Part shown: positions 26,155-63,350 of the stretch, in pieces | How positions within the stretch are numbered: the stretch's first letter is position 1 | How the letters are laid out: every line of letters begins with the position of its first letter | Notes under the pieces: generated by a model | The model's input: only the letters and a program-made list of their open reading frames with translations | What the model was told of the DNA's origin: nothing | Databases searched by the model: none | Source: Hahella chejuensis KCTC 2396 | Lineage (GTDB): Bacteria > Pseudomonadota > Gammaproteobacteria > Pseudomonadales > Oleiphilaceae | Reading direction: 5' to 3' | Assembly (NCBI RefSeq): GCF_000012985.1 | Contig: NC_007645.1 | Span: forward strand, 124,001-188,000 | Length of the DNA: 64,000 nt | Translations under genes and position numbers: made by a program

Positions 26155-26503
26155 TAAACATTGCTTTTAAGAAAATAGAGCAGAAAAAAGCACAAGAGAA
26201 TCGGTGTTTTGGTTTAAGGAAAAGCGACTAACCGGAAATGCCGAAAAGCTGGCTTGGTAAACAAAGGAACTTTCAGGAAGGAGTGTTTGTCATGAAAATG
26301 TTAATAAATATAGGCAAAAGCTCCTATCATCCTGAAAATTGTCTTATTTTGTCGTAAATGGATATACGCTTATAACGAGGATTTGATACGGAATCCGCCT
26401 GATACTCGCTTTATCCGCAAGAGATATAAAATACACTAGTAATTGTATATCGCGTCCACTTGCCATCCACCCGCGACCAAGCCTAAACTAATCGGCACAT
26501 CTT
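26155..26503. other. AT-rich intergenic region before the thiamine riboswitch
   Basis: About 350 bases, AT-rich, holding the thiC operon promoter. The only coding candidate is a 21-codon ORF at 26292-26357 with GGAAGGAG upstream. No other structure is seen. Confidence 0.4.
26292..26357 (+). CDS. Tiny ORF with strong ribosome-binding site
   Basis: ATG at 26292, a 21-residue product with the sequence start MKMLINIGKSSYHP, preceded by AGGAAGGAG with a good spacing. It has no recognised homology and the promoter for thiC probably lies beyond it, so it may be chance. Confidence 0.2.
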   Translation: MKMLINIGKSSYHPENCLILS

Positions 26504-26590
26504 GTCGGGGTGCCTGGAGTAACAGGCTGAGACCACAACAGTGGGGCCCGTAGAACCTGATCTGGTTAGTACCAGCGTAGGAAACAAGTA
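26504..26590 (+). ncRNA. TPP riboswitch (THI element)
   Basis: The thi-box landmarks are in order: GGGGUGCC near 26507, CUGAGA at 26527-26532, the ACCUGAUCUGGUUA element near 26555-26569, and GCGUAGGAA near 26575-26583. It binds thiamine pyrophosphate and represses the thiC operon, about 120 bases upstream of the thiC start, so control is probably at translation initiation or termination. Confidence 0.95.
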
Positions 26591-26699
26591 GTTCATCAAA
26601 CGTTCACCGCGGCGCGCCATCCTCAGGATGCAGCCGAGTCACACAGCAAGACGTTGATGCCCTCTCTCCTAACTGGTGCTACCCCATACAACCAACTAG

Positions 26700-54997: not shown

Positions 54998-55999
54998 TCA
55001 CTCCATCCACATGATGGCGCCGTCACACTCTATTTTGCGTGACGTGAACAGTTCGATCACTTCCGCATTGGTCTCCGCATGCAAAGACCACTCTGCGATG
55101 GAAAACCTGCCGCCACCCGCTATCAGCATTGGCAGCATCATTTGATCCGTTAGATGTTCATCCAGCACCGCCTTGCTGTCCAAATAGGACTTCACCTTCT
55201 GGCTGAGCAGCTTGGAAACCAGCTCCGCTCGACGCCGCACCTGACCCAATTCGGAAATACAAATACGATGGTCATCGAACTGCAGGTCCACCGCCAACAG
55301 GTTGCCGGCGCAGCCCGCTTCCGGTTTGCGCTGCCGTGATTCATGCACGGGATGTTCGCGCAACGAGAGATAAGCCTGTACTTCCCGCTCGCCGACCTTA
55401 CCGGGAATGTTGTAGCAATAGGCAGTCAAGCGGCTGTGGTTCAGCTCGCCCCGCTTAACGCGTTCAATCGGTCGTAACGCTGCGGGTTGTATGCGAATAC
55501 GCCATTTACCGCCGCCCGCGGGCATAAAGCCCCAGCGTTCTGCTTCTATTTCGATACGGGCGCCCATGTCCCGCAACAACGGTAGAAAGGAGCGCTCAAT
55601 TTCCGTAAGAGGCGGTGCGAAAGGGTTATGAGTGCCGCCGCCGAATTCGACAGTGGAAACCCCTTCCGCTTGTAACAGAGGCAATAATATTGTCTGGAAC
55701 ACCAGCGTCGTGCTGCCTGCACTGCCTACATCGAATTTGTAATTGCCGCCTTTTATCGGGCCGGGCTTGAACGTCAAGCGGGAGGAGCCCAGCTCCGCCC
55801 CGTCTACTTTTGCGTTGCATATCGTCTGGGCGGCCTTAACGCAAGTCAGATGTTGACGCATCAGACCCGGTTTGGGGCGCTTGCCGCGTATATGATTTAT
55901 TTCTATTTCTTTGCCGTACAACATGGCCAGGGTCAGGGACGATCTCAAAATCTGCCCTCCGCCTTCGCCCATGCGTCCGTCTATTACAACTTTATCCAT
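54998..55999 (-). CDS. rtcA: RNA 3'-terminal phosphate cyclase
   Basis: A 333-residue enzyme that converts a 3'-phosphate end of RNA to a 2',3'-cyclic phosphate using ATP, via a covalent enzyme-AMP. The N-terminal MGEGGGQILRSSL motif and, near the end, the catalytic His in HLTDQMMLPMLIAGGG are present. It follows rtcB on the same strand (49-base gap), giving an rtcBA operon like that of E. coli. Confidence 0.96.
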   Translation of the reverse strand: MDKVVIDGRMGEGGGQILRSSLTLAMLYGKEIEINHIRGKRPKPGLMRQHLTCVKAAQTICNAKVDGAELGSSRLTFKPGPIKGGNYKFDVGSAGSTTLVFQTILLPLLQAEGVSTVEFGGGTHNPFAPPLTEIERSFLPLLRDMGARIEIEAERWGFMPAGGGKWRIRIQPAALRPIERVKRGELNHSRLTAYCYNIPGKVGEREVQAYLSLREHPVHESRQRKPEAGCAGNLLAVDLQFDDHRICISELGQVRRRAELVSKLLSQKVKSYLDSKAVLDEHLTDQMMLPMLIAGGGRFSIAEWSLHAETNAEVIELFTSRKIECDGAIMWME

Positions 56000-56048: not shown

Positions 56049-57287
56049 TCAACCTTTTACGCACACAACCTGTCTCAGGGTATGCACGACTTCAACCAGG
56101 TCGGACTGCGCCGCCATCACGGCGTCGATATCTTTGTAAGCGGAAGGCGTTTCGTCCACAACCGCCGCGTCTTTTCGGCATTCCACATGCGCTGTGGCGC
56201 GCGCGTGCTCTTCTACGGATACGCGCTTTTTCGCCTCGGTTCGAGACATCACTCTTCCTGCGCCGTGGCTACAGCTACAGAAGCTTTCCGCGTTGCCTTT
56301 TCCGCGCACTATGTAGGAGCGGGCTCCCATGCTGCCTGGGATAATCCCCAGTTGGCCTTCCTGCGCGCTTACCGCGCCCTTACGGGTCAACCACACGTTT
56401 TTCCCGTAGTGGTTTTCCTTTTGCACATAGTTATGGTGGCAGTTCACCGCTTCCAGCTCGGCGATAACCGGCTTGTTCAAGGTAGTCGCCAGGGCGTTCA
56501 GCGCCCGTTGCATCATCGCCTGACGGTTGATGCGCGCGAAATCCTGCGCCCAACCTACAGCCTGTACATAATCGTTGAAGTAATCGGTTCCCTCCGCCAG
56601 ATACGCCAGATCTTTATCTGGCAGGTTTACGAAGAAGCGCTCCATTTCCTTCTTCGCCAGCTTGATGAAGTGCTCGCCGATACGGTTCCCAACTCCGCGT
56701 GATCCGGAGTGCAGCATAATCCACACATCGTTGTTCTCATCCAGGCACACTTCGATGAAGTGGTTACCCGTTCCCAGGGTTCCCAGATGGTTCACGTTGT
56801 TGGTGTTTTTCAAAACCGGGTGCTTTTCGCACAGGATTTTGAAACGATCCGCCAGCTCGTGAGTCCAACGCGCGCCCACATCTTCCGGGATATCATGCCA
56901 GGAACCCCGATCGCGGCGTCCTGGTTGACGACCATGGGGTATCGCCGCTTCTATCGCGCTACGCAGCGGTCCCAGAGAGTCCGGCAATTGCGTTGCATGC
57001 ACGTTGGTTTTCACCGCCATCATACCGCAACCGATATCCACTCCCACGGCAGCGGGAATAATAGCGCCGGAAGTGGGAATAACAGAGCCGATGGTTGCGC
57101 CCTTACCTAAGTGTACGTCCGGCATCGCAGCCACCCACTTATGAATGAACGGCAGGGACGCAATGTTTTTCAATTGTTTGCGCGCTTCCGGCTCGAACGG
57201 AACGCCGATAGTCCAGCTTTTGATTGGAACGCCTTTTTCTACGTTAGTAACTTCATATGGCATTTGGGGTTTCGTGCTTTGCATCAT
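56049..57287 (-). CDS. rtcB: RNA-splicing ligase RtcB
   Basis: A 412-residue GTP- and Mn-dependent ligase joining 2',3'-cyclic phosphate or 3'-phosphate ends to 5'-OH RNA ends. Metal and active-site motifs are seen: MPDVHLGKGATIGSVIPT, GVDIGCGMMAV (Cys), TNNVNHLGTLGTGNHFIE in part, CHHNYV, and FCSCSHGAGRVMSR with the guanylylated His. It ends in the invariant LRQVVCVKG. ATG 57287 has AAGG at 7 bases and is preferred to TTG 57293. A sigma-54 promoter lies upstream. Confidence 0.97.
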   Translation of the reverse strand: MMQSTKPQMPYEVTNVEKGVPIKSWTIGVPFEPEARKQLKNIASLPFIHKWVAAMPDVHLGKGATIGSVIPTSGAIIPAAVGVDIGCGMMAVKTNVHATQLPDSLGPLRSAIEAAIPHGRQPGRRDRGSWHDIPEDVGARWTHELADRFKILCEKHPVLKNTNNVNHLGTLGTGNHFIEVCLDENNDVWIMLHSGSRGVGNRIGEHFIKLAKKEMERFFVNLPDKDLAYLAEGTDYFNDYVQAVGWAQDFARINRQAMMQRALNALATTLNKPVIAELEAVNCHHNYVQKENHYGKNVWLTRKGAVSAQEGQLGIIPGSMGARSYIVRGKGNAESFCSCSHGAGRVMSRTEAKKRVSVEEHARATAHVECRKDAAVVDETPSAYKDIDAVMAAQSDLVEVVHTLRQVVCVKG

Positions 57288-57378
57288 TCTCAAACCTTTT
57301 TGGTGGGACTCTCATGTCCCGGATCAGCTGTATTTGGGGAGACGCCTTTCAGCAGGTACATCTCGATGCCATTACTAT

Positions 57379-57394
57379 TACAAAACGCGGGCCA
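57379..57394 (-). promoter_or_regulatory. Sigma-54 promoter of rtcBA
   Basis: Read on the minus strand: TGGCCCG-CGTT-TTGTA. It has the invariant -24 GG and the -12 G at the right distance; the -12 is GT rather than GC. The predicted start is near 57367, about 80 bases before rtcB. The same element, with the same GT, stands before the tRNA-like RNA at 62401. Confidence 0.75.
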
Positions 57395-57469
57395 ACTTTT
57401 ATTTTATATATAAGTGTATGAAAATTAACGAAAATTATTTTTGTTATAAGATTCGGATTTTTAGTAAAT

Positions 57470-57487
57470 TATCTATTTTGATAGATA
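57470..57487. promoter_or_regulatory. Candidate RtcR enhancer site (UAS) for rtcBA
   Basis: TATCTA-N6-TAGATA, a perfect 6-bp inverted repeat, one base after the rtcR stop and about 110 bases upstream of the predicted rtcBA start. The same repeat with the same spacing occurs at 62274 before the tRNA-like RNA/rlaP unit, which strongly suggests one activator for both. Confidence 0.7.
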
Positions 57488-57488
57488 C

Positions 57489-59078
57489 TTATGATTTCAG
57501 ATTGTCAAACTCCAGGTCGAATTTGTTCAGATACTGCCGCAGCCGGTGGGAGTCGTTACTGGAGCTTTTACGCAATCGAGAGCGATTGAAGAGCTGGCGT
57601 CCCGCCTCTGACAAAGAGCGGCTGTTACGGCAAAGCGCAATCACGCTGCGTAATTGATATTGGTCGAAGGTATCGATTTCCGCCATTTGTCCTGGGGACA
57701 GATAATCCTCCAGTAACGGCAGGGACTCATGAGCGCCGCTACGCCGCCAAAAATGTTGCAGGCGTTCGCACTCTTCATCCACCAGCGTCTCGTTGATGCG
57801 GCCGCCTTCGGATAGCGTAGCCATGCGCTGTACACAGGCATTCAGGTCGCGGAAATTGCCCTGCCATAAGGAGTCCGGTTGTTGGGCGAAATGCAGAAAT
57901 CTCGCTCGCGCGGCTTTATTGAAGCTGACCTTATGTCCTAACTGCTGCTCGGCTTTTTGTAGCTCATAGTCCAGATTGGGCTCTATGTCTTCGCGTCGGT
58001 CTTTCAGCCCGGGCAGTTCATAACTCCACAAATTGATGCGGGCCAGCAGATCCTCCCGAAAGCTGCCGTTGTCGACCTGCTTCTGCAGGTCGCGATTGGT
58101 GCCGGCAATAAGCTGGAAGTCGCTGTGCGCAGGATTGTCGGAACCGACGGGGTAGAAGCGCTTCTCTTCAATGGCGTGCAGCAGCATCGCCTGTTCATCC
58201 AGGCCTAGCTCACCGATTTCATCCAGGAACAACAGTCCCTGATCGGCCTTGGCGAGCAGGCCCTTGCGTGCGGTTTGCGCGCCGGTGAATGCGCCCTTGT
58301 TATGACCGAACAGCGCCGACATGGCGCTGTCGCCACGTAGCGTGGCGCAGTTGATCGACACAAATTCGCCTTTCACGGAGCCGCGGATTTTCTTCAGCTC
58401 AAAAATCTTGCCAGCGAGCTGGGATTTGCCTGCTCCTGTAGGGCCGGTGATCAGAATCGGCGCCTGAGAGCGTATAGCCACTCTCTCGATCTGCTGGATC
58501 ATGGCGTTGAAGCGGGCGTTACGGGTAGCGATGCCTGACTTGAGAAACTCCGTTCCTTCCAGTTGCTGGCGCTTGAAGCGGGAGCTGATGGCGTCGTATT
58601 TGGAGAGGTCGAGATCTATCAGGTGATATTTGCCGGCGGCGACGCGCTCGCCCCGGTCTGGAGAAGTCTGCAAAATCTGCGCGGGGATATAATTCGCCTC
58701 ACATAGCAGGAACCAGCAAATCTGCGCAACATGGGTGCCGGTGGTGATATGCAGTAGATAACGCTCTTCATCTGGCTTGAAAGGATAGTTTTCGGCGAAA
58801 TCCAGCAGGGTGCTGTAAACCTGTTCGAAATCCCAGGGATCGCTGAAACTGATTTGGCGCAGGCTCACTTCTGTATCCGGCGATACAGTCTCGATATCCG
58901 CGCCCACGTTATTGGCCAGGCGTGAGTCTCTGGCGTCATGCAGCAGCTCGATGCGATCAATCAGCAGGTCCTGTTGCATGAATATGCCGACGGTCGGCCT
59001 CCATGTCTCCCAGCGCGCAGGCCCCTTGCCGCGTTTATCCATGGTGGCGCCCAACAGGCCGATGACTACGTTTTTCAT
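57489..59078 (-). CDS. rtcR: Sigma-54 activator RtcR (CARF-AAA+)
   Basis: A 529-residue activator. N-terminal CARF domain (about 1-180; HITTGTHVAQI at 110-120), which senses RNA ends in E. coli and Salmonella; AAA+ domain with Walker A GPTGAGKS (212-219), the sigma-54-contacting GAFTGA (262-267) and Walker B LLFLDE (282-287); and a C-terminal DNA-binding helix-turn-helix (about 475-520). Unlike E. coli, where rtcR is divergent from rtcBA, here it is upstream in the same direction. Confidence 0.96.
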   Translation of the reverse strand: MKNVVIGLLGATMDKRGKGPARWETWRPTVGIFMQQDLLIDRIELLHDARDSRLANNVGADIETVSPDTEVSLRQISFSDPWDFEQVYSTLLDFAENYPFKPDEERYLLHITTGTHVAQICWFLLCEANYIPAQILQTSPDRGERVAAGKYHLIDLDLSKYDAISSRFKRQQLEGTEFLKSGIATRNARFNAMIQQIERVAIRSQAPILITGPTGAGKSQLAGKIFELKKIRGSVKGEFVSINCATLRGDSAMSALFGHNKGAFTGAQTARKGLLAKADQGLLFLDEIGELGLDEQAMLLHAIEEKRFYPVGSDNPAHSDFQLIAGTNRDLQKQVDNGSFREDLLARINLWSYELPGLKDRREDIEPNLDYELQKAEQQLGHKVSFNKAARARFLHFAQQPDSLWQGNFRDLNACVQRMATLSEGGRINETLVDEECERLQHFWRRSGAHESLPLLEDYLSPGQMAEIDTFDQYQLRSVIALCRNSRSLSEAGRQLFNRSRLRKSSSNDSHRLRQYLNKFDLEFDNLKS

Positions 59079-59211
59079 ATGATCTTTTTCGATAAATGGT
59101 TACAGACAGCGATCATATTCTCCGAAGGCCGAGAGGAAGGCAACTTGATAGCTGGAGTGTATGTTTGTAGGGATTAAGTTGGAGAGGGGCGGGAAGTCTA
59201 TGGATGAGTAT

Positions 59212-59236
59212 AAAAAAAGGCCGCGCAAAGGCGGCC
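59212..59236 (-). terminator. Intrinsic terminator of the AGCS symporter gene
   Basis: On the minus strand GGCCGC-CTTTGC-GCGGCC followed by seven T, just downstream of the symporter stop. Confidence 0.9.
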
Positions 59237-59255
59237 ACAGGGGTTTATGAGATCG

Positions 59256-60620
59256 TTAAGATCTAACCGCCGCCATTTTGACGGTGGCGAAGTGCTCATT
59301 GGTCAACTTGACCAGAATGGGCGATAACAGCAATAGCGACAATAGATTGGGGATGGCCATGAAGGCGTTGAAGACATCGCCAATCAGCCAGACGAACTCC
59401 AACTGCGCCAAGGCGCCAATCATGACGCACAGGGTGCTCAGCAGGCGATAAGGAATAATCGCGGCGGAGCCCATCAGGTATTCCCAGCACTTTTCGCCGT
59501 AGTAGGCCCAACCCAGAATGGTGGTGAAGGCGAATACGATCAACTGGATCGCCAGCAAATATTCGCCGAACCCCGGCATCGCCGCTGCAAACGCGCTGGC
59601 GGTGAGCGCCGCGCCTGACACGCCGCTTTCCCAGACGCCGCTGGCGATCAACGCCAGGCCGGTCAGGGTGCAAACGATGATCGTGTCGATAAAAGTGCCC
59701 ATCATGCCAATCAGGCCCGAGGTGACCGGATCAGAGGTTTTTCCCGCCGCTTGCGCGATGCCTGCGGTGCCAAGGCCTGCCTCGTTGGAGAAGATGCCTC
59801 GGGCCACGCCGTAGCGAATCGCCATCATGACGGCGGCGCCGGCGAATCCGCCTGTTGCGGCGGTGGGAGAAAAGGCGTGTGTGAAAATCAGGTCGAAGGC
59901 GTGAGGGATGCGGTCAGAGAAAGTGAAAAGAATATAGAAGGCGCAGAGAATATAGGAAATACACATGGTGGGCACCAGCGCCTGAGCCACTGCGCCAATG
60001 CGTTTGATGCCGCCGAGCAGCACGAAGCCGATCAACACGGTCATCACGACGCCGGAAGCGGCGGCGGGAATGTCGAAGGAAGTGCTCATCACTTCCGCGA
60101 TGCTGTTGGACTGCACCATGTTGCCAGCGCCGAATCCCGCCAGACCGCCGAACAGTGCGAAAGCGCCGCCCAGCCAGGCCCATTTGGGGCCCAGGCCGTT
60201 TTTGATGGCGTACATGGGGCCGCCAACGTATTCGCCATTCTCGTCTTTTTCCCGGAAGCGCACCGCCAGCACCACTTCCGCGTACTTGGTCGCCATGCCG
60301 ACCAGGGCGGTGGCCCACATCCAGAACAGCGCTCCTGGTCCACCCAGGGCCAGAGCCGTCGCCACGCCGGCGATATTTCCGGTTCCGACAGTGGCGGCCA
60401 ATGCTGTCATCAGCGCGGCGAAAGGACTGATTTCTCCCGGATCGCGGGTATCCGGCTTACGACCTCTCCATACCAACTGCAGGCCCAGTTTGAGCGTGAA
60501 CAAGGGCATGAACTTCAAACGGAATTGCAAAAACAGCCCTACGCCCAGAATAAGAATGAGCATGGGGGGGCCCCATACGAAATCATTCAGGTCGGATACC
60601 AGGTTATGAATAGTTTCCAA
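59256..60620 (-). CDS. Alanine/glycine:cation symporter (AGCS family)
   Basis: A 454-residue inner-membrane carrier with about ten helices. The family motifs ATVGTGNIAGVATAL, GPGALFWMWATALVGMATKYAEVVLAV in part, and SNEAGLGTAGIAQAAG are present. It brings in alanine or glycine with Na+. With dadA next to it (same strand, 224-base gap) it fits D-/L-alanine use. Confidence 0.93.
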   Translation of the reverse strand: METIHNLVSDLNDFVWGPPMLILILGVGLFLQFRLKFMPLFTLKLGLQLVWRGRKPDTRDPGEISPFAALMTALAATVGTGNIAGVATALALGGPGALFWMWATALVGMATKYAEVVLAVRFREKDENGEYVGGPMYAIKNGLGPKWAWLGGAFALFGGLAGFGAGNMVQSNSIAEVMSTSFDIPAAASGVVMTVLIGFVLLGGIKRIGAVAQALVPTMCISYILCAFYILFTFSDRIPHAFDLIFTHAFSPTAATGGFAGAAVMMAIRYGVARGIFSNEAGLGTAGIAQAAGKTSDPVTSGLIGMMGTFIDTIIVCTLTGLALIASGVWESGVSGAALTASAFAAAMPGFGEYLLAIQLIVFAFTTILGWAYYGEKCWEYLMGSAAIIPYRLLSTLCVMIGALAQLEFVWLIGDVFNAFMAIPNLLSLLLLSPILVKLTNEHFATVKMAAVRS

Positions 60621-60844
60621 GGGATCTTCTCCTCTCTTTATTTGTCAGGCTGCGCTATGGGGGGCGCTGCGCTGCTTCCCATACGTTTTTTGTAAGACGC
60701 GGCGTCACGCCGGGTCACAGCTCCCGGCGCGCGCCAGACACAGGATGTGGATCAAGCGTGCGTCCAATGGTTCGCCGTTCATTGAGAACGGCGGCGAGGC
60801 GGAGCTCCATCCGCCAGCGACGGTCCCTCACATAGCAGTGGTTA

Positions 60845-62095
60845 TCAGTAGCGGTCTATTCCCAGTCCCTCAGTGTCAATCTCAGGTTGGCGTCCGGATA
60901 CAATATCCGCCATGACGCGTCCCGTTCCCGCCGCCATGGTCCAGCCCAAAGTGCCGTGGCCGCTGGCGACATAAAGTTTATTAATAGGCGTCGCCCCCAC
61001 GATGGGGGTTCCGTCTGGAGTCATGGGGCGCAGCCCGGTCCAGAATTCGGCTTCGCCATTGGCGTAACCGGTTCCGAACAGGTCGTCCGCCACAAACTCC
61101 AACGTGCTCTTTCTTGCCTGATGCAGGCGCAGGTCGTAACCGGCCAATTCCGCCGTTCCGCCGACCCGGATACGGTCGCCCAAGCGGGTGACGGCGACTT
61201 TGTAGGTTTCGTCCAGCAGCGTCGACTCTGGAGCCCGGTTTGGATTTTTGACCGGCAGGGTAATCGAATAACCTTTCACTGGAATGATGGGCGCTCTGAG
61301 CCCCAAAGGCTTCAATAGCAGAGGGGTATAGCTGCCGAGAGCGACGATATAGGCGTCCGCCTGCAGCGCGCCTTGACCCGTTTGTACGGACAGGATCGCA
61401 TCGCCGCTCTTCTCCAGCCCATGGATGGTAACGCCCTGTTTGAAAACGACGCCTTTTTCTTCCGCCAGTGCGGCTAAGGCTTGTGTGAATTTGAAGCAAT
61501 CCCCGGTTTCATCGCCAGGTAAACGCAGCCCGCCGCTGATTTTGTCTCTGACAGTGGCGAGTCCTGGTTCGTACTTAATGCAGCCATCGCGATCCAGCAG
61601 TTCATAAGGAACGCCAAAGGATTCCAGAATACGGGTGTCCGCCAGTGCGGCGTCGACTTGTTGCTGCTTGCGGAATAGTTGAATCGTGCCGCGACTGCGT
61701 TCGTCGTAACGGACGCCGGTCTCAACACGCAGTTGTTTGAGTACGTCGCGGCTGTATTCGGCCAGTCGCAACATCCGAGATTTATTCAGGTTGTAGCGGT
61801 GAGAATTGGCGTTAGCAAGAAATTGCGCTGTCCAGCGCCATAGATCGGGATTCAGGGTGGGGCGGACAACCAGAGGACGGTGCTTCATACACAGCCACTT
61901 AATTGCTTTCAAAGCAATCCCCGGGGCCGCCCAGGGCGCAGAGCAACCGGGTGAGATTTCGCCGGCGTTGCCGTAACTGGTTTCCAAGGCAGGACTGGAT
62001 TGTCGGTCGACAACAGTCACTTCATGCCCGAGCTGGGCCAGATGGTATGCGGTGGAAACGCCGATGACGCCGCTGCCCAGGATAATTACACGCAT
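60845..62095 (-). CDS. dadA: D-amino acid dehydrogenase DadA
   Basis: A 416-residue FAD enzyme that deaminates D-alanine and related D-amino acids into the quinone pool. The dinucleotide motif ILGSGVIGVSTAYHLAQLG is at residues 4-22. The ending YVASGHGTLGWTMAAGTG is typical for DadA. No dadX racemase is seen here. The AGCS symporter downstream supports alanine catabolism. Confidence 0.95.
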   Translation of the reverse strand: MRVIILGSGVIGVSTAYHLAQLGHEVTVVDRQSSPALETSYGNAGEISPGCSAPWAAPGIALKAIKWLCMKHRPLVVRPTLNPDLWRWTAQFLANANSHRYNLNKSRMLRLAEYSRDVLKQLRVETGVRYDERSRGTIQLFRKQQQVDAALADTRILESFGVPYELLDRDGCIKYEPGLATVRDKISGGLRLPGDETGDCFKFTQALAALAEEKGVVFKQGVTIHGLEKSGDAILSVQTGQGALQADAYIVALGSYTPLLLKPLGLRAPIIPVKGYSITLPVKNPNRAPESTLLDETYKVAVTRLGDRIRVGGTAELAGYDLRLHQARKSTLEFVADDLFGTGYANGEAEFWTGLRPMTPDGTPIVGATPINKLYVASGHGTLGWTMAAGTGRVMADIVSGRQPEIDTEGLGIDRY

Positions 62096-62129
62096 TTATT
62101 GTCCTTGTTGTCTCTGCTTTGACTTCGCT

Positions 62130-62159
62130 GCGTGGCTCGCTGCACGCGCAGGCTGCGCC
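62130..62159. repeat. Degenerate copy of intergenic repeat (copy D)
   Basis: This region resembles the third module of the structured repeat (core GGCTCGC-CG-CGCGCAGGC), with several mismatches to copy B. It lies upstream of dadA, as copy C does upstream of the hydrolase. Weak on its own. Confidence 0.35.
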
Positions 62160-62273
62160 ATTAAATAACAACCGTATATAAATCTGCATAAGTAATTCCC
62201 ATAGTTGTACATGGAAAATTTGGGGTTGCGCCAGCGGATTTGTATATAAAATGATCCGATCTAAAAAGATAAC

Positions 62274-62291
62274 TATCTATTCCATTAGATA
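62274..62291. promoter_or_regulatory. Candidate RtcR enhancer site (UAS) before the tRNA-like RNA
   Basis: TATCTA-N6-TAGATA, identical in arms and spacing to the site at 57470 before rtcBA, and about 145 bases upstream of the predicted transcription start. Confidence 0.7.
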
Positions 62292-62400
62292 GCTTGTTCT
62301 TGATACTTGGATTGCGTGAATAACTCTAATCTCAGCTTAACCGAAATTATATCCTTAAAAAACAATTGCTTAGAAAGTAATTCCTTTCTGTTGGAAAGAT

Positions 62401-62416
62401 TGGCGCGTTCTTTGTA
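62401..62416 (+). promoter_or_regulatory. Sigma-54 promoter of the tRNA-like RNA and rlaP
   Basis: TGGCGCG-TTCT-TTGTA: -24 GG and -12 G in register, with GT at the -12, as at the rtcBA promoter. Predicted start near 62426-62428, eight to ten bases before the tRNA-like acceptor stem. Confidence 0.78.
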
Positions 62417-62435
62417 ATTGACGGGGTCGAACAAA

Positions 62436-62561
62436 GGACGCGAAGGCGAAAAGGCGAGCCGCCGGCAAACGGGTTGCGCAGCCGGTGAAGGGTAATACCG
62501 AGACCATTCGGAGTAATGCCCGAAGTCATGGTTATTGTGGGTTCGAGTCCCACCGCGTCCA
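62436..62561 (+). ncRNA. tRNA-like RNA with expanded central region
   Basis: An RNA of about 126 nt. Acceptor stem GGACGCG (62436-62442) / CGCGTCC (62554-62560), 7 perfect pairs with A as discriminator; T-arm GTGGG-TTCGAGT-CCCAC (62537-62553), which fits the TpsiCRANY loop; a D-arm-like hairpin GGCG / CGCC (62445-62463) with GG in its 11-nt loop. Between D-like arm and T-arm are 73 nt, in place of an anticodon arm, with a GGG..CCGA / UCGG..CCC hairpin at 62490-62521. CCA is not encoded. There is no anticodon loop, so it cannot be a normal tRNA. It resembles tRNA-mimicking modules of bacterial Y RNAs (YrlA), but a Ro gene is absent here. Confidence 0.78.
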
Positions 62562-62594
62562 CTTATATCAGAAGTAAAAACAGGAGTGGCGACA

Positions 62595-63350
62595 ATGGAA
62601 AAGCGGATACAGGAAACTCTGGAGCGGATCGAGTGGGAGCACGATGTCAGAGTGCTCTACGCTTGTGAATCAGGCAGCCGGGCCTGGGGATTCGCTTCCC
62701 GGGATAGTGACTATGACGTTAGATTTATCTATCAACGTCCACTGTCTCATTATTTATCATTAGGCAAACGACGGGATGTAATTGAGCTTCCCATTGTGGA
62801 TGAACTGGACGTTAACGGCTGGGATATCAGCAAGGCGTTGACGCTATTACGCAGCGGTTCGGCGACGTTGCAGGAATGGCTGAATTCGCCAATTGTTTAT
62901 AGCCGGGACGTTGTGTTTCTCGCGCAGATGAAATATGTGGCGTCGCTTTCCGCGCGTCCCGTCACGTTGTTTCATCACTACTTCTCCATGGCGCGCAAGG
63001 AGCGTGAGAGATTGGCTGCGGGCGAGGTCAACGCCAAACGCTATGCCTATATGTTGCGGACGTTGCTGGCCGCGATGTGGGTGGCGGAGCATAGGACGCC
63101 TCCGCCGGTGCGCTTCTATGAATTGAAGGCGCGTATGTTGGGCGGCGGTTCGTTAGTGGCGGAAGTGGATGCATTGCTGGAGCGCAAGGCGAAGGGGAAT
63201 GAAAAGGAAGTCATCAAACCTGTCACAGCGATAGACTGCTTTGCGGATGGTCAGTTTGAGGCGCTGGAGGCAGTGCGTTTTGACGCTGTGGACAAACTCG
63301 ATCTGGAGACCATTGATCGAGTTTTCATGCAGATGCTAAACGCCGCATAG
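62595..63350 (+). CDS. rlaP: RlaP-type nucleotidyltransferase (RNA repair)
   Basis: A 251-residue protein of the COG3541/RlaP family (RNA repair pathway DNA polymerase beta family). The polymerase-beta motif is GSRAWGFASRDSDYD, with G27-S28 and the metal-binding pair D39/D41. It probably adds nucleotides to RNA ends. ATG 62595 is preceded by AGGAG at 8 bases; an upstream in-frame start at 62535 would overlap the tRNA-like RNA and is rejected. It lies 34 bases after that RNA and is probably on the same sigma-54 transcript. A terminator follows. Confidence 0.9.
   Translation: MEKRIQETLERIEWEHDVRVLYACESGSRAWGFASRDSDYDVRFIYQRPLSHYLSLGKRRDVIELPIVDELDVNGWDISKALTLLRSGSATLQEWLNSPIVYSRDVVFLAQMKYVASLSARPVTLFHHYFSMARKERERLAAGEVNAKRYAYMLRTLLAAMWVAEHRTPPPVRFYELKARMLGGGSLVAEVDALLERKAKGNEKEVIKPVTAIDCFADGQFEALEAVRFDAVDKLDLETIDRVFMQMLNAA

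Follow-up and report, generated by a model that had tools for sequence, protein, structure and literature searches.

Are the RNA-repair genes rtcB and rtcA (rtcBA) and a second unit, composed of a tRNA-like RNA and rlaP, controlled together by the activator RtcR? This question is raised by a stretch of 64,000 bp of Hahella chejuensis (the window), which corresponds to bases 124001-188000 of a 7,215,267-bp single-contig genome (hereafter own genome). The minus strand carries rtcR (57489..59078), rtcB, an RNA ligase (56049..57293; Pfam PF01139, E 4e-133), and rtcA, an RNA 3'-terminal phosphate cyclase (54998..55999; PF01137, E 7e-78). About 5 kb apart from them, the plus strand carries the RNA (62436..62561) and rlaP, a polymerase-beta-type nucleotidyltransferase (62595..63350; PF10127, E 2.4e-91). 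As a CARF-AAA+ sigma-54 activator, RtcR contains both the CARF domain (PF06956, E 5e-84) and the sigma-54 activator domain (PF00158, E 9e-50), and the gene names given in an earlier note on the window agree with these matches.

Joint control of the two units by RtcR had been proposed in that note, and it is highly probable in view of four lines of sequence evidence, which are not fully independent of each other. Sites of the type TATC-N6-GATA are located at both promoters, and sigma-54 promoters linked to RtcR are enriched in this type. Apart from these two units, the tandem of these sites is found in the own genome at a Ro60/Y RNA locus, at a locus of an rtcR paralogue with tRNA genes, and at one place within a reading frame. 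All three tandem matches in Hahella sp. HN01, the nearest named relative found (RtcR 97% and RlaP 91% identical), are rtcR-linked, although the reversed control pattern is also found twice there. Finally, in several other species the RNA and rlaP are placed in an operon divergent from rtcR. The sites, boxes, gene content and RNA structure are read directly from the DNA.

Activator sites and sigma-54 boxes

The proposal was founded on the palindrome TATCTA-N6-TAGATA and on two sigma-54 boxes, all of which were recovered as exact matches where the earlier note had placed them. The palindromes at 57470-57487 and 62274-62291 are all the matches of the window at up to two mismatches (0.48 expected; two reached by 4/100 shuffles). 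In the whole genome the exact repeat occurs twice, both times in the window and each time upstream of a -24/-12 box; a repeat that is frequent without such promoters, which the note had warned of, was not found for the exact form. At one mismatch the palindrome is no longer special, with seven places genome-wide versus six for the reversed control. It lies upstream of the box at both units as claimed, but the claimed distance of 110-145 bases at both was slightly off, the gaps being 75 bases (rtcB) and 108 bases (RNA unit).

The box of rtcBA, TTGGCCCGCGTTTTGTA (57379..57395, minus strand), keeps its -24 and -12 blocks in HN01. The box of the RNA-rlaP unit, TTGGCGCGTTCTTTGTA (62400..62416, plus strand), is largely kept there and has its 3' end 19 bases ahead of the tRNA-like RNA. 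The box pattern, exact at 57394-57379 (minus strand) and 62401-62416 (plus strand), was derived from these two sites themselves, and at up to two mismatches its 15 matches in the window are not above chance (18.96 expected). In the alignment of H. chejuensis and HN01, both palindromes and both boxes are conserved amid otherwise drifting promoter DNA. The exact 18-mer was not found in the HN01 genome; as the activator site it was therefore replaced by TATC-N6-GATA, and the palindrome is the downstream site of this type with four flanking bases.

The motif set comprised 24 promoters, that is, two of the window, two of HN01, 19 upstream of rtcR genes and one directly before the RNA in locus L093, which was kept though rtcR was not found in its stretch. 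The boxes were partly picked by eye, and four RtcR loci were excluded, L118 for want of a visible upstream box and L120-L122 because their matches were weak or partial. TATC-N6-GATA is exact in 8/24 promoters (0.11 expected from shuffles), and at up to one mismatch it is found in 17/24, both window promoters included (2.96 expected); neither count was reached by any of 100 shuffles. Without the four promoters of the window and HN01, the respective counts are 6/20 and 13/20. When spacings of 2-12 bases were compared, N6 alone was strongly enriched, and N10 also exceeds its shuffles. Copies placed exactly 20 bp apart are present in nine of the 24 promoters, with the first copy at -140 to -144 from the box.

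In rtcBA, the tandem sites AATCTGAAATCATA and TATCAAAATAGATA (57470..57503, minus strand) are 20 bp apart; the one nearer to the box, at -89, is exact, the one upstream of it is weaker, and they form a genome-wide tandem match with two mismatches. In RNA-rlaP, the sites GATCTAAAAAGATA at -143 and TATTCCATTAGATA at -123 (62258..62291, plus strand) have one mismatch each, and both positions are retained in HN01. Escherichia coli rtcBA, which is outside the motif set, shows a single site at -121, which has one mismatch, and a tandem partner was not seen.

The pattern TATC-N6-GATA-N6-TATC-N6-GATA was searched genome-wide at up to two mismatches, with the reversed pattern as control. The own genome has five tandem places and the control none. 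Four of the five are at RNA-repair or tRNA promoters, namely those of rtcBA, RNA-rlaP, an rtcR paralogue divergent from tRNA-Met-Cys-Glu, and the Ro60 gene; three places already belonged to the set from which the motif was derived, whereas the Ro60 locus did not. The fifth place (1777853) is inside a reading frame of 303 amino acids and was taken as chance. The Ro60 (rsr) locus (G000:C1:1574198-1576653, L159) is 1.4 Mb away, with tandem sites at -143/-123 before the box TTGGCATTTAGGCTGCA. Its protein matches PF25045 (61.2 bits) and a YrlA Y RNA is found downstream (75.4 bits). A search with the TROVE model PF05731 had indicated that Ro60 is absent from the genome, which was wrong, since the vWA_Ro60 model PF25045 detects it in both Hahella genomes. 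In HN01 the Ro60 gene is preceded by a sigma-54 box, at which the sequence examined begins.

The three HN01 places belong to rtcBA, RNA-rlaP and the rtcR paralogue with tRNA-Met-Cys-Glu, the last one being outside the motif set but the counterpart of one of its members. Among 11 other RtcR-bearing genomes there are 13 tandem places, six of them at rtc promoters, and five of these six come from the motif set. The sixth is the promoter of rtcB in G305 (70% identical), on its own contig apart from rtcR; here the box reads TAGGCAC and the sites are at -120/-100. In 11 genomes without an RtcR match the pattern was found twice. For the 23 genomes together there are 18 tandem places versus nine of the reversed control, and thus single tandem matches elsewhere mean little.

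Two further RtcR-family genes are located in the own genome at G000:C1:1724852 (L127) and G000:C1:5637532 (L128). Each is oriented divergently from a set of tRNA genes preceded by a sigma-54-like box, the tRNAs being Met-Cys-Glu at L127 and, at L128, Ser-Ser-Asp-Leu-Trp-Gln accompanied by an HNH-endonuclease gene. The L128 promoter is without a TATC-N6-GATA site within one mismatch. HNH_5 genes adjoin tRNA arrays in three such loci (L089:1983-2546, L128:5861-6421 and L150:4374-4946).

The tRNA-like RNA and its genomic company

Judged by its conservation and covariation, the tRNA-like RNA is real and represents a conserved structured family, normally of ~212 nt, of which the window holds a short version. 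The window copy scores 125.6 bits with the family covariance model R1, and 33.6 bits with the Rfam tRNA model (E 1.2e-5, in a relaxed search of a short stretch), the latter with a large insertion. The gathering-mode Rfam scan of the window did not report it, ARAGORN called no tRNA there, and the readable anticodon arm of a canonical tRNA was not found. No family of its own was met in Rfam release 15 at gathering scores, in the window and 13 member loci; at relaxed scores the general tRNA model alone matched the window copy.

The family search was seeded by a pattern from two members, those of the window and of SZUA-467, the second of which was reached through rlaP, and was run over a collection of 84,980 species. 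It gave 15 matches, 13 of them real (SZUA-467 included). L092, in which ARAGORN found no tRNA and the remaining RNA was missing by eye, and L095, a tRNA-Arg, were dropped before counting. In 369 genomes of the class, R1 gave five matches above 90 bits, three of them additional members. Only the five above 90 bits were counted, since ordinary tRNAs reach 40 bits and R1 thus matches 364/369 genomes; each of the 15 loci ranking next is a tRNA-Ser or -Leu. The family totals 17 members with the window copy, and 14 of them, the window copy being one of the rows, compose alignment A1 and model R1.

The tRNA-like part of the consensus is made up of a 7-bp acceptor stem, a D arm whose loop carries an invariant GG, and a canonical T arm. 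At the position of the anticodon arm there are hairpins with the conserved loops GGGTAAAACC and GAGTAATGCC and a central domain, TTGAGGATGCAG ... GCGCGTTT. Over the 14 members, 34/54 pairs show a double compensatory change, although several rows are closely related, so that these counts are not independent. Paired cells reach 94.8% in the alignment, from which the structure was itself predicted, versus 38.5-42.4% after sliding of the partner strand. The CCA 3' end is encoded in 12 of the 13 aligned full-length members, and the window copy reads ACTT there. The window RNA is also 84 nt shorter than that of HN01 (L126), the whole central domain being cleanly lost at 62506-62507 with the flanking helices left. 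Outside the missing block the RNA is highly conserved in HN01, although the promoter DNA has drifted.

Searches for homologues in plasmids and E. coli genomes found none. In viral contigs there were 53 pattern matches, and in no case did a T-loop motif follow within 250 bases; a single phage match was rejected as a 31-base T-arm likeness to tRNA-Leu. An order-level DNA search of 145 genomes gave one match beyond the own genome, without tRNA-like context.

The neighbors of the RNA in the stretches examined include rtcB for 13/17 members, rtcR for 9/17 and rlaP for 7/17 (L102 was extended as L126 for these counts). When the two seed members are left aside, the counts are 11/15, 7/15 and 5/15, and those 15 members were found by RNA sequence or structure alone. 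In L099 and L101, rtcR is followed, in divergent orientation, by a tRNA, an SPFH gene, the RNA, rtcB, rlaP and rtcA. The same order was seen by eye in L096, from a Pseudomonadota metagenome-assembled genome (MAG), with a Barstar-domain gene (L096:2444-2923) separating rtcB from rlaP. SZUA-467 (L025/L100) has Ro60 first, then Y RNAs (one found by Rfam and three more by eye), the tRNA-like RNA, rtcB, rlaP and rtcA. In a Cellvibrionaceae MAG the RNA stands among 14 tRNA genes, and rtcB was not found in 8 kb. Regarding rlaP itself, the 369 genomes contain it in 14 cases and RtcR in 15, with both in eight (P = 2e-9).

Probable control by RtcR and a possible role of the RNA

Taken together, these features most plausibly describe an RNA-repair regulon of RtcR and sigma-54 that is split into separate units and includes the non-decoding tRNA-like RNA as a cofactor or decoy, a reading which is probable on the sequence evidence. 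RtcR would sense the RNA ends of cut tRNAs, as shown in Salmonella, bind the TATC-N6-GATA sites 20 bp apart, and activate the sigma-54 promoters of rtcBA, of the RNA with rlaP and of the Ro60-Y RNA locus. A paralogous RtcR would use the same type of site before tRNA genes. Damage would then induce the ligase, the cyclase, RlaP, the tRNA-like RNA and the Ro60/Y RNA unit together. From the arrangement of sites and genes we infer the binding of RtcR, the induction, the co-transcription and a role of the RNA in repair. The RNA itself retains a tRNA body (acceptor, D and T arms) in which a structured insert replaces the anticodon arm, and decoding is therefore not expected of it. It most likely assists repair enzymes that handle tRNAs, as a non-coding cofactor, or serves them as a decoy. 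Its particular role, as a non-decoding tRNA mimic that serves such enzymes as cofactor, guide or decoy, is proposed tentatively.

It is close to an even question whether activators of the RtcR family run a wider programme of repair and replacement, which would combine ligation and end repair, quality control by Ro60 and Y RNA, spare tRNA genes and a ~212-nt tRNA mimic immune to anticodon nucleases. Signals from cut tRNAs would switch on RtcB, RtcA, RlaP, Ro60/Y RNA, the spare tRNAs and the mimic, and the mimic would occupy or guide tRNA-handling enzymes. If this is true, the RNA would represent a family of repair RNA that is new, and the regulon could be recognized in the sequences of other proteobacteria by its TATC-N6-GATA tandem.

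Several observations weigh against control of both units by RtcR, or against its generality. Four of the 17 RNA members are without rtcB in the stretch examined, although one of these is located where its contig ends. In ten scanned rlaP loci that have neither rtcR nor rtcB beside rlaP, no tandem site was found near a box, so rlaP is not under RtcR control everywhere. In the count of shared genomes, G001 rests on an RtcR match below the cut-off, and without the two sub-threshold RtcR matches the overlap is seven (P = 3e-8). Seven of the 24 promoters (L111, L112, L115, L125, L099, L101 and L103) are without a site within one mismatch; L112 is the RNA-bearing SZUA-467 operon (G240), L125 is an rtcR paralogue of the own genome, and L099, L101 and L103 are also RNA-bearing. 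The window RNA is without the central domain and the encoded CCA, and the function of this copy might be altered. Lastly, the three RtcR-family proteins of the own genome could share or divide the sites.

The last point leads to an alternative in which the RNA unit is under another sigma-54 activator or an RtcR paralogue, the shared sites being a general footprint of the RtcR family. One of the two further RtcR-family proteins indeed has the same tandem site before tRNAs. The window rtcR, however, is flanked by the rtcBA and RNA units, and in other species the RNA is within the operon of the adjacent rtcR, which makes this alternative unlikely. A decayed tRNA gene or a chance fold could be suspected from the silence of ARAGORN, from the window copy being shorter than its relatives, and from the longer stretch around the RNA, which shows no clear excess stability (z -1.27, 25/200 shuffles). 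The RNA alone, on the other hand, folds better than its shuffles (z -2.42, 3/200), it is conserved in HN01 as described, and the strong covariation over 14 members refutes decay or chance for the family; this explanation is hardly tenable.

Two known classes of RNA come into question as well. G3-U70 in the acceptor stem is the alanine identity element of tRNA, and it is present in 8/14 members (columns 3 and 223 of A1); together with the canonical T loop and the encoded CCA, it could indicate an aminoacylated translation-rescue RNA similar to transfer-messenger RNA (tmRNA), which happens to be co-induced with repair genes. This pair is not conserved, being A-U in the window and G-C in five others, an ordinary tmRNA is located elsewhere in the genome (5837081-5837434, 194.8 bits), and the window RNA reaches 15.8 bits with the tmRNA model RF00023, below the cut-off of 47. 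Such a nature of the RNA is thus improbable. An even smaller chance is given to a YrlA-type bacterial Y RNA acting with Ro60. According to excerpts of two studies, YrlA RNAs have a tRNA-like domain and are part of the Salmonella RtcR operon (PMC7790460, PMC9879122), and both Ro60 and a YrlA are present in the own genome. The Rfam YrlA model (RF02553) detects the Y RNAs of L025 and L159 but not the window RNA, even at E up to 10, and in SZUA-467 an Rfam-matched YrlA and the tRNA-like RNA are found together in one operon. By eye, the L025 Y RNAs have the T arm before the D arm, whereas the ends of the tRNA-like RNA pair as an acceptor stem.

Relation to known systems and remaining features of the locus

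In Salmonella, the rsr-yrlBA-rtcBA operon is described, in the portions of the papers available, as driven by RtcR and sigma-54 and as encoding RtcB, RtcA, Ro60 and Y RNAs, one of them with a tRNA-like domain; the inducer of RtcR is RNA with cyclic phosphate ends (PMC7790460, PMC9879122). RtcR acts from an upstream site and, in E. coli, it drives rtcBA and its full activation requires RtcA and RtcB, as excerpts of these and related papers state (PMC7790460, PMC9879122, PMC9650030, PMC5175333). Hahella resembles Salmonella in having rtcBA, Ro60 and a Y RNA with RtcR/sigma-54 signals. In contrast to the single Salmonella operon, its members are spread over separate promoters with matching sites, and RlaP, a tRNA-like RNA other than YrlA and an RtcR paralogue facing tRNA genes are added. 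Like YrlA, the tRNA-like RNA occurs in RtcR-linked operons, and unlike it, it has no RF02553 match and its tRNA parts are, by eye, ordered differently.

In 2016, Burroughs and Aravind reportedly described RtcB systems in which SPFH/Band-7 proteins occur together with RlaP and a "novel tRNA-like molecule", and they are also reported to have found a novel nucleotidyltransferase. The present RNA may be this molecule, and its family may then be partly known. Similarly to those systems, the RNA of L099 and L101 is placed between an SPFH gene and rtcB. In contrast, no SPFH gene is beside the window RNA, and the activator-site motif was derived in the present analysis. Among the open-licence literature matches listed, there was no mention of the tRNA-like RNA or of RtcR-linked tRNA arrays.

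The TrcR regulon of Anabaena offers another parallel. In the available part of its description, one regulator serves rtcB, a 26-gene tRNA operon, a slipin and an HNH gene, which are released by translation inhibitors; TrcR is a repressor of another family, and an RtcR homologue was, according to that paper, not found in Anabaena (PMC10272220). The coupling of rtcB with tRNA genes is alike, whereas Hahella has the activator RtcR (PMC10272220 for TrcR, same excerpt), and the term "tRNA-like" is absent from the paper's text. An HNH gene, which this excerpt lists in the TrcR regulon (PMC10272220), likewise stands beside the tRNA arrays of L089, L128 and L150.

Beyond these parallels, a structured tRNA-like RNA that has no own family in Rfam 15 is tied to RNA repair, largely through RNA-only searches. 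A DNA signature for RtcR targets is also provided, and it picked out further members, namely the Ro60/Y RNA locus here and rtcB elsewhere. The substrate question of bacterial RNA repair thereby becomes directly testable.

RlaP is an RNA-ligase-associated nucleotidyltransferase predicted, in the excerpt available, to restore lost nucleotides before ligation (PMC7824862). No relatives of it with solved structures were found at E 0.01. The residue block G-S-R, W-G-F-A-S, S-D-Y-D-V-R is invariant in 5/5 aligned RlaP sequences, and we take its GS and SDYD to be the catalytic residues. Between the rtc genes and RNA-rlaP, the profile search placed genes for a sodium/alanine symporter and an FAD-dependent oxidoreductase. 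Elsewhere in the window, a thiamine pyrophosphate (TPP) riboswitch is located at 26496-26600 (Rfam RF00059, 78.7 bits).

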